A stretch of 64,000 bases of DNA, taken from positions 96,325 through 160,324 of the forward strand of contig JAIKXN010000239.1 in NCBI GenBank assembly GCA_024684055.1, in the 5' to 3' direction. Below the pieces are notes generated by a model. That model made no database searches, was not told where the DNA came from, and saw only the letters and a list, made by a program, of their open reading frames with translations. A program made the translations under genes and the position numbers. Below are positions 1 to 2,889 of this stretch, one piece after another. The first letter of the stretch is position 1; each line of letters begins with the position of its first letter. Source of the stretch: Lachnospiraceae bacterium. Its GTDB lineage: Bacteria > Bacillota > Clostridia > Lachnospirales > Lachnospiraceae.

Positions 1-1
1 T

Positions 2-1327
2 GTCGAAAGCGAAGTAAACGTAAACGCTGAAAGCGAACAGACTGCTCCGAAGATAAAAAAGAGTTCCGGAAACGGGTGGATCATAGGTCTTATTGTCGGA
101 ATTGTACTTATGCTTTTCCTTGTTATTTTTTCGGGAATTCTCGTTGTTATAGGCATTATGCCGCTGGCTTTTAAGACCATAACTTCGACTTCACATCCCA
201 CGGTTCAGGCTGTACCGAATCCTCCGACAAACAACAATCTTCCGAATATTCCCGATGTTAAGGAAAACGAAGAAGATGAAAAAGATAATGAAAACAAAGA
301 TGAAGACGGAAAAGAAAACGACGAAACCAAAGAAGAGGAAGAACCTCTGACAATACGTCCTTACGATCCGGATGATTCTGTGTTTGATTATGATAAATTC
401 AGTGATGAGATCATTTCCGGTTCGAATGAATTCTGGGATGAAAACAAAGGTGATGACGATCTTTTCGTTCACGGTAATTATTCGGCGTATTCACAATCCG
501 GTTCTTCTCATGATTTCGCGGACAGAGACAGTTTCACCACCCCTTATTACAACTATATTATTAATTCCTATGTTGAGAACGAGAATTATGATGTTGAAAG
601 AAGAACAATAAGATATGAGGGCGAAGTTAACGGAGTTTATTACAACGCGTACTGCGGATATTATACTCTGTCTGCAGATAACGTTGATTTTACAGCCGTT
701 AATGAAGGCTTAAGAAATAAATGCCTCGAACGTATTGAAGATTATATAAGAAATTCGACAGATGCCGCGGGAACATATGTAACCATTTATGTTGATTCCG
801 TTGTAACTTTCAATAATGATGATGTATTCTCGGCAGCATACGACACAAATGTTTATTCGAATAATGTCATAAATACATTTTCGATTTCTTCGGTAAATAT
901 CGATGTTAAGAATGCAGCCGTTATGGATAATACAAAGATTCTCACGCTTGATGATGATTTCAGCAAATTCTTCATTGAACGTTCGAATACACAGAACAGA
1001 TGGGTTGAAAGCATTAATAAATCGGATGTATCCGATGTTACGAAAGTATTCAACGATGACGATTCGCTCATTCTGTTTTTCACTCCGCTCGGAGTTGAGG
1101 TCGGAATCAATTACAAATACAGGCAGGACAGTTACGGATCCGATTACGTCGGATGGGTTACCATTACCTTAAATGATTTTGACAATTATCTCAGCGGTAC
1201 TTATAACTTTAACGCGGATTGGGGCAAAAATTATGATATTTATCAGTATGAAAAAGATAATAACATAACACCCAGTTCAGGCTACGAATTCGATTACGAT
1301 TACGATTCGATTTTATATGATTTATAA
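2..1327 (+). CDS. Membrane-anchored extracellular protein, 5'-truncated by the window edge; C-terminal region vaguely DUF3298/RsiV-like
   Basis: Frame of ORF 110 stays open upstream to base 2 (VESEVNVNAESEQTAPKIKKSSGNGWIIGLIVGIVLML), then a TM helix, an acidic K/E/D-rich linker and a secreted domain; the true start lies outside the window. Confidence 0.7.
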   Translation, partial: VESEVNVNAESEQTAPKIKKSSGNGWIIGLIVGIVLMLFLVIFSGILVVIGIMPLAFKTITSTSHPTVQAVPNPPTNNNLPNIPDVKENEEDEKDNENKDEDGKENDETKEEEEPLTIRPYDPDDSVFDYDKFSDEIISGSNEFWDENKGDDDLFVHGNYSAYSQSGSSHDFADRDSFTTPYYNYIINSYVENENYDVERRTIRYEGEVNGVYYNAYCGYYTLSADNVDFTAVNEGLRNKCLERIEDYIRNSTDAAGTYVTIYVDSVVTFNNDDVFSAAYDTNVYSNNVINTFSISSVNIDVKNAAVMDNTKILTLDDDFSKFFIERSNTQNRWVESINKSDVSDVTKVFNDDDSLILFFTPLGVEVGINYKYRQDSYGSDYVGWVTITLNDFDNYLSGTYNFNADWGKNYDIYQYEKDNNITPSSGYEFDYDYDSILYDL

Positions 1328-1401: not shown

Positions 1402-2100
1402 ATGAACGGTAAGGAAAAATGCAAAGCTCTTAAAGAGATCAGAAGAAAAATCGCAGAGAACAATGATATATATTATGCAGTGGAAGAATGTCAGCATAAA
1501 GGAGACTGCAAAGGCACATGTCCCAAATGCGAAGCAGAACTTCGTTATCTTGAAAGAGAGCTCGAGAGAAGAGCTGCTCTCGGCAAAGCGGTAGCTTTTG
1601 CAGGAATTTCCCTCGGTGTTGTATCTACTTTTGCTGCATGTACAGGCGTCGGGATCAATCCTGTTAATCATATTGACGGAGGAATGTCAGGCCCTGTTGA
1701 TTATGCAGGAGACATTCAGCCTGTTGAACCCGAATATATTATTGACGGGGATGTAAGTATTGATATGATAATCCCCGAAGAAGGCAATGACGGTACATGT
1801 ACCGATCCCGATTCAGACGGGGCAGAAAATAAAGACGGAACCGAAATACCAGAAGGTGATCAAAAAAACGAAGGAACAGAAAGCTCAGTCGGAACTGAAA
1901 ATACTGAAGGTCAAGAGGATCCCGAGGAAAAAGAGAATACTGACAGAACTGAGGATCCTGATGGCGAAGAAAACCCTGAAGGAAAAGAGAGCGACGGTAC
2001 TGAAACAGATGGAAATTCTGACAATGCCGACGGCAGCAAAGAATCTGCAGATAAACCGGTTCCTACACTGACGAAACCTGTAAGAAATTTTTGTTATTAA
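1402..2100 (+). CDS. Small protein with N-terminal Cys-rich domain (ECQHKGDCKGTCPKCEAE), one hydrophobic segment and long acidic low-complexity tail; probable partner of the adjacent radical SAM enzyme
   Basis: RBS-like ggaggtg before ATG 1402; MNGKEKCKALKEIRRKIAENNDIYYAVEECQHKGDCKGTCPKCEAELRYLERELERR; hydrophobic AVAFAGISLGVVSTFAAC; repeated GTE/EDPE-type tail. Confidence 0.75.
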   Translation: MNGKEKCKALKEIRRKIAENNDIYYAVEECQHKGDCKGTCPKCEAELRYLERELERRAALGKAVAFAGISLGVVSTFAACTGVGINPVNHIDGGMSGPVDYAGDIQPVEPEYIIDGDVSIDMIIPEEGNDGTCTDPDSDGAENKDGTEIPEGDQKNEGTESSVGTENTEGQEDPEEKENTDRTEDPDGEENPEGKESDGTETDGNSDNADGSKESADKPVPTLTKPVRNFCY

Positions 2101-2202
2101 ATAATTTTGAAGAATTACTGTTATGTATATATTAAAAAACATGTAAATATAAATATATAACGTTAAGTAATTGTTCATAAATATCGATCAAGCGGGAAAA
2201 AG

Positions 2203-2889
2203 ATGGCGGAAATTAAAATAGCCGGAATAGAAAGATTAAGAATGGAAACAGACGGCGAGGGTGTAACAACCCTCGTTGTTTCTATGGGTTGCCCTTTAAG
2301 ATGTGCATATTGTCTTAATCCTTTTACCTGGGATAATTCATATGCCGGATTTAAAACATATACCGTTAAAGGATTATATGATGAACTTAAAATAGACAGT
2401 CTTTATTTTCTTTCGACAGGCGGAGGTATAATGTTCGGGGGCGGAGAACCGCTTCTAAATGCCGATTTCATTCGTGAATTCATAGAAGAATATAAGTCTG
2501 TCGGATGGAAGTTTTATATGGAAACTTCGCTTTCGGTTCCAAGAGAAAAACTTGATAAAGTTATCGACCTGATAGACTGTTTTGTCGTCGATACCAAAGA
2601 CATGAACAAAGAAAGATACGAAAAATATACTCTCGGCAATTACGATCTTTTTTATAACAATCTTACATATCTTTTGGAAAAGGTCGGATGCGAAAAGATA
2701 ATAGCAAGAGTTCCGAAGATTCCCATATTTCATAAAGATAATGAATTTCTTGAAAACGAACAGTTCTTAAAAGATATGGGTTTTGAAAATATAAATGTTT
2801 TTGATTATATCAATCCGGAAGATCACAAAAAAATATCCGAAGCGGCTTTAAAAAACAGAGATTCTTTTATTGCCAAAATAATTCAATAA
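2203..2889 (+). CDS. Radical SAM protein, pyruvate-formate-lyase-activating-enzyme-like
   Basis: CxxxCxxC motif in VVSMGCPLRCAYCLNPFTW and GGGEPLL motif. Confidence 0.88.
   Translation: MAEIKIAGIERLRMETDGEGVTTLVVSMGCPLRCAYCLNPFTWDNSYAGFKTYTVKGLYDELKIDSLYFLSTGGGIMFGGGEPLLNADFIREFIEEYKSVGWKFYMETSLSVPREKLDKVIDLIDCFVVDTKDMNKERYEKYTLGNYDLFYNNLTYLLEKVGCEKIIARVPKIPIFHKDNEFLENEQFLKDMGFENINVFDYINPEDHKKISEAALKNRDSFIAKIIQ

Follow-up and report, generated by a model that had tools for sequence, protein, structure and literature searches.

A cysteine-rich domain of about 57 amino acids (the Cys domain) and a small radical SAM enzyme (rSAM), encoded next to each other in the window (the whole stretch of 64,000 nucleotides analysed here), recur together in essentially every genome that carries either gene, which is more than chance would produce. 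The best single explanation of this pair, to which we give an even chance of being correct, is that the Cys domain serves as a leader guiding the rSAM to glycines in the variable tail of the protein that bears it.

The gene pair and its distribution

Both genes were found where the initial annotation had placed them, adjacent to each other on the + strand. The first (1402–2100), preceded by a GGAGG ribosome-binding site just ahead of its ATG at 1402, encodes a protein of 232 amino acids (the Cys-leader protein), a putative precursor or substrate of the rSAM, which matched no family over cut-off and has homologues in Clostridia and Bacteroidales. The second (2203–2889) encodes an rSAM of 228 amino acids; the 102 nucleotides that separate them contain no terminator-like site on the + strand. 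The cysteines of the 232-residue protein occupy positions 7, 30, 36, 40, 43, 80, 133 and 231. Its parts, all encoded on the + strand, are the Cys domain (residues 1–57, with C7, C30, C36, C40 and C43; 1402–1572), which we propose to be the docking leader for the rSAM; a hydrophobic segment ending in a lipobox-like AAC with C80 (1573–1641); three copies of a glycine motif (1684–1755), namely MSGPV (1684–1698), YAGDI (1702–1716) and IDGDV (1741–1755); and a putatively exported, acidic low-complexity tail of D, E, G and T (1756–2097). The hydrophobic segment and its AAC end are indeed present, but are better read as a cleavable signal sequence than as a membrane anchor, a role at first considered for the Cys protein. 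Similarly, the C-terminal RNFCY that had been pointed out closes the window protein, but it is not conserved even within the genus.

Directly upstream of the Cys gene lies the gene of a 474-amino-acid zinc-ribbon membrane protein that has an acidic linker and a C-terminal domain (window 1–1327, the gene starting just upstream of the window; L048:9903-11327). Its relatives occupy the same position in many genomes of the genus, and none was seen outside the genus.

Using profile searches on an evenly drawn set of 397 genomes from the window's family (Lachnospiraceae), we found the Cys domain in 17 genomes and rSAMs of the window's clade, with 189 bits or more, in the same 17, an extra Cys match in G757 being a spurious frame of 34 amino acids. 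The other rSAM matches in this draw scored below about 140 bits; most of their frames had the length of activases of glycyl radical enzymes (GREs), and the low-scoring matches that were inspected adjoin GRE genes. The sole rSAM-only case of the draw is a frame of 143 amino acids (L204, in G132), apparently a decayed rSAM of the clade, with no Cys gene nearby. Within the genus, the Cys domain and the rSAM occur in the same 28 of 31 genomes, and in the family outside the genus relatives of the Cys domain occur in a scattered minority of genera; as judged by tblastn on the loci, the rSAM adjoins essentially all of the Cys loci found in genus and family. Of 399 genomes drawn from the whole phylum, only the window's own and one other had the domain, and its distribution is thus patchy.

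A scan of 84,980 species genomes yielded at least 494 confirmed relatives of the Cys domain, in Clostridia and Bacteroidales, of which 80 loci were kept. The rSAM lies within the locus in 71 of these 80, usually within a few bases 3′ of the Cys gene, and comes first in several Bacteroidales. The nine other loci (L127, L130, L133, L144, L145, L152, L155, L157 and L164) come from genomes that each have exactly one rSAM of the clade, at another site, with a score of 280–314 bits versus at most 85 for the next match. In Bacteroides cellulosilyticus DSM 14838, for instance, the genes of two Cys-leader proteins are separate from that of the rSAM. Regarding the possibility, raised in the initial annotation, that homologues of the Cys protein routinely occur without the rSAM gene, every exception met in this neighbourhood analysis turned out to have the rSAM in its genome. 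Two candidate exceptions were dismissed, namely L047, whose Cys match was not recovered with the family profile, and L034, whose genome carries the rSAM on another contig. The domain does recur in the Lachnospiraceae, but it is not confined to this family, since relatives exist in other Clostridia and in Bacteroidales.

The radical SAM enzyme

The 228-residue protein matches Pfam Radical_SAM (PF04055, 1.8e-12) and resembles GRE activases without carrying an auxiliary-cluster domain. The members of its clade are about 205–230 amino acids long, lack a C-terminal SPASM/auxiliary-cluster domain and, in 64 relatives, share as invariant cysteines only C30, C34 and C37 of the CX3CX2C cluster motif (residues 30–37; 2290–2313, + strand). 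The predicted model of the rSAM (pLDDT 93.3) has as its best PDB fold match 3cb8, the GRE activase PFL-AE with a bound peptide (E 3.2e-15). Two residues invariant in the clade, D17 and N39, align with Asp16 and Asn38 of PFL-AE, which hold the loop of the substrate Gly734 (PMC9326890). Binding of a glycine-containing peptide by the rSAM is plausible, and a glycine would be the site from which it abstracts hydrogen.

With the GRE activases (PFL-AE; TIGR02493/TIGR02494), the clade has in common the radical SAM fold, CX3CX2C, GGGE and the equivalents of Asp16 and Asn38. It differs from them in having no GRE partner and a strict partnership with the Cys domain, in reading DGEGVTT where PFL-AE has DGPGIR, in its long branch off the GRE activases (in a tree whose deep branching order is weakly supported) and in its scores. 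The nearest curated family of the window's rSAM, TIGR02494, gave 120.7 bits against a cut-off of 174.35, the protein falls under every curated GRE activase cut-off, and none of its relatives was seen above that of TIGR02494 (best E 8.9e-44).

Since the nearest named families and the closest solved fold are those of GRE activases, the rSAM might be taken for an ordinary activase whose GRE is encoded elsewhere in the genome, a reading that we consider highly improbable. As had been stated from the sequence, no GRE adjoins the rSAM in the window, and no GRE domain was found in the tested partner proteins. As to a cognate GRE elsewhere, there is a single PFL-like gene in the window's genome (G000; 3.04 Mb, 95% complete), on contig 139, which is followed by an activase of its own, so that the window's rSAM is a second, GRE-less relative. 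This genome is a draft of 264 contigs, and a GRE might have been missed, yet such a GRE would leave the co-occurrence of the Cys domain and the rSAM unexplained. Together with the sub-threshold scores and the long branch of the clade, the activase next to the only PFL and this co-occurrence largely refute the ordinary-activase reading. A role in defence, as a prokaryotic viperin, was rejected as well, the similarity of the rSAM to the PADLOC pVip models being weak (17–23 bits only).

Putative leader, signal sequence and tail

The five cysteines at positions 7, 30, 36, 40 and 43 are invariant in 80 exported relatives, and C30 is replaced by Tyr in one divergent cytosolic member. The Cys domain, for which there was no Pfam family over cut-off and no PDB sequence or fold match, is probably metal-binding. 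Its AlphaFold2 model (mean pLDDT 77.6) comprises a helix (3–20), the Cys loop and a long helix (41–78). As this long helix runs into the hydrophobic segment with its lipobox or AxA site, the Cys domain appears to occupy the n-region of an extended signal peptide. Among the non-redundant members, 92 have a lipobox-like cysteine, 11 (found in Bacteroidales) have a signal peptidase I-like AxA site, and 7 have no hydrophobic segment. From these site motifs, the leader is predicted to be cleaved off at the lipobox or signal peptidase I site. Just upstream of one Bacteroidales Cys gene lies the gene of a small lipoprotein-like protein that lacks a Cys domain and whose hydrophobic segment and lipobox are similar (L142:4477-4989).

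In Bacteroidales and some Clostridia, two to four Cys-leader genes stand in a row, one enzyme thus being found with several precursors. In 27 pairs of such same-locus paralogues, the median identity is 95% for the Cys domain, 64% for the hydrophobic segment and 34% for the tail, the last value being near the 30% found for random pairs of tails. Between orthologues of the genus, the identity is 78% for the Cys domain, 51% for the rSAM and 34% for the tail. The tails are either acidic and of low complexity, or they contain TonB_C (2.7e-15) or CarboxypepD_reg (7.5e-20) domains; the precursors reach several hundred residues, with folded domains in tails, and are not short peptides.

In both phyla, the tails share the consensus ExLxG(D/E)(V/P/A)x(Y/P)xP, which is enriched about tenfold over shuffled sequences. 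Around the glycines of 106 non-redundant tails, position −2 favours Leu (3.5-fold), +1 Asp or Glu, +2 Val, Ile or Met, +4 Tyr, and +5/+6 Pro. In these 106 tails, which were filtered for overlap, LxGx[VIMAP] occurs 199 times versus 20.8 in shuffles (27 versus 4.9 in Bacteroidales; 172 versus 15.5 in the rest) and LxG[DE] 160 times versus 17.5, in shuffle statistics that ignore common descent. The controls GxL (reversed), LxD, LxE and LxP showed no enrichment in the tails; the motif ratio in other ORFs was 1.1, and the motif density per 1000 residues was 14.9 in the tails versus 0.9 in acidic stretches taken from other ORFs. At least one [LM]xGx[VIMAP] is present in 87% of the tails versus 23% of the shuffles, leaving 13% of the tails without it. 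A short-tailed precursor of 139 amino acids (L092:5001-5420) has both LAGDVEYIPE and LEGDVVYEPE in its tail. The protein of L034 has no signal sequence, yet it bears both the Cys domain and such a motif (MVGNILPP).

Near the base of the tree stands a group in which the Cys domain forms the C-terminus of cytosolic proteins, most of which lack the tail motif, and the rSAM is still paired with it. In L053, L054, L056, L059, L169 and L170, it ends a protein with a domain of about 270 amino acids (MKIVxTDxGxLWN...), an RxYP-like segment standing behind the Cys domain in place of the signal sequence. In L167 (5889-7109), an FtsZ-like GTPase (Tubulin/FtsZ, 9.7e-24) encoded beside the rSAM gene bears it as a C-terminal fusion, and L060:7422-9008 and L168:6085-7698 encode three-part fusions uniting an N-terminal domain, the Cys domain and the rSAM in one chain. 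These fusions and basal cytosolic carriers support a direct partnership between the Cys domain and the rSAM; they also show that not every carrier has an exported tail, and give room for a role of the Cys domain as an Fe-S partner or as the part that is modified.

Proposed function and relation to known systems

We propose that the Cys domain would act as a recognition leader that binds its dedicated rSAM, which would then act on the ExLxG(D/E)(V/P/A)x(Y/P)xP motifs of the tail while the protein is still cytosolic. The chemistry would most likely be the removal of a hydrogen from the glycine alpha-carbon, as in GRE activases. The protein would then be exported with the Cys domain and the hydrophobic segment as an extended signal peptide, and cutting at the lipobox or signal peptidase I site would yield an extracellular product, either a modified lipoprotein or a modified secreted protein. 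Several lines of evidence argue for this leader-guided modification. First, the two partners co-occur (17/17 genomes of the family and 28/28 of the genus), even for the nine loci with a non-adjacent rSAM, and can be fused. Second, near-identical Cys domains precede near-random tails, and the Cys domain is better conserved than the enzyme. Third, lipobox- or signal peptidase I-like sites were found in 103 non-redundant sequences, and the tail motif is enriched in both phyla. Fourth, the D17/N39 anchors are invariant and the closest structure is that of PFL-AE with a peptide. Against it stand the Cys domains of the basal cytosolic proteins, paired with the rSAM and mostly without motif, the minority of motif-less tails, and the tails themselves, often large and folded, unlike typical RiPP cores. 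The early suggestion of a possibly RiPP-like rSAM system, in which the Cys protein would be partner or substrate, is in part supported by the co-occurrence, the fusions and the conserved-leader/variable-tail arrays, but the precursors are not short peptides. Furthermore, the tail motif could be a binding motif instead of a modification site.

It is also conceivable, though unlikely, that the Cys domain serves the rSAM as an Fe-S or electron-transfer partner, contributing an extra cluster in trans (in the fusions, in cis), while the proteins attached to the domain bring the complex to membranes or partners and the substrate is something else. The absence from the rSAM of invariant cysteines beyond CX3CX2C, the natural fusions that set the Cys domain directly ahead of the rSAM, and the pairing that persists on cytosolic, motif-less proteins all fit such a role, which leaves unexplained why one locus should hold several near-identical Cys domains on different tails, why a signal sequence should lie right behind the domain, and why the tails should have a common motif. 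The tail motif is equally unaccounted for if the Cys domain is itself the substrate of the rSAM (e.g. for metal-site maturation or a crosslink) and the variable parts are merely carried along. Being the only element common to all carriers, the FtsZ-like and other cytosolic proteins included, and more conserved than the enzyme, the domain would suit that role; in the exported members, however, it belongs to the part that signal peptidase is expected to remove, so that the modification would be discarded, and we regard this option as quite improbable.

Leader-guided protein modification by radical SAM enzymes is of a known kind, and there is a real chance that the Cys-leader system is more than another instance of it. 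Like proteusin- and Nif11-type RiPP precursors, the Cys-leader proteins combine a long conserved leader, several paralogues per enzyme, a hypervariable downstream part and an adjacent radical SAM enzyme. Unlike them, they have a leader that, judging from its sequence, doubles as the n-region of a signal peptide, and downstream parts that can extend to several hundred residues and include TonB_C or CarboxypepD_reg domains. No SPASM domain and no recurring dedicated protease or transporter gene were seen in the Cys/rSAM loci. TIGR04133/TIGR04134 (NCBIfam), the models of the Bacteroidetes rSAM/lipoprotein pair, were not among the matches of the tested proteins. That pair likewise joins a radical SAM enzyme to a lipoprotein; its enzyme is of the SPASM type, unlike the window's rSAM. 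A search of the open-access literature found no earlier description of the Cys-leader/rSAM pair.

Tentatively, the pair may represent a new class of post-translational modification, in which a metal-binding domain situated in a signal peptide's n-region would recruit a GRE-activase-type rSAM, and this enzyme would modify several glycines of LxG(D/E)V motifs within whole exported proteins. In gut Clostridia and Bacteroidales, its targets would be lipoproteins as well as TonB-like and CarboxypepD-like proteins, and ordinary signal peptidase would remove the leader. If this is true, glycine-directed radical chemistry decorates surface proteins, beyond switching on glycyl radical enzymes, and a RiPP-type leader can at the same time be a signal peptide. 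The Cys-leader system offers concrete substrates, a motif and an enzyme, and a possible role for an activase without a glycyl radical enzyme. Modified surface proteins would then exist in many gut Bacteroidales and Clostridia under the present annotations 'hypothetical protein' or 'energy transducer TonB'.

Spread by phages or plasmids was rejected, given that the pair was seen on no viral contig and on one plasmid, of Segatella copri (L221; NZ_CP137558.1). The NCBI annotation of this plasmid places a 'radical SAM protein' gene behind two genes named 'energy transducer TonB', and this copy lies near relaxase/MobC genes, which points to horizontal spread.
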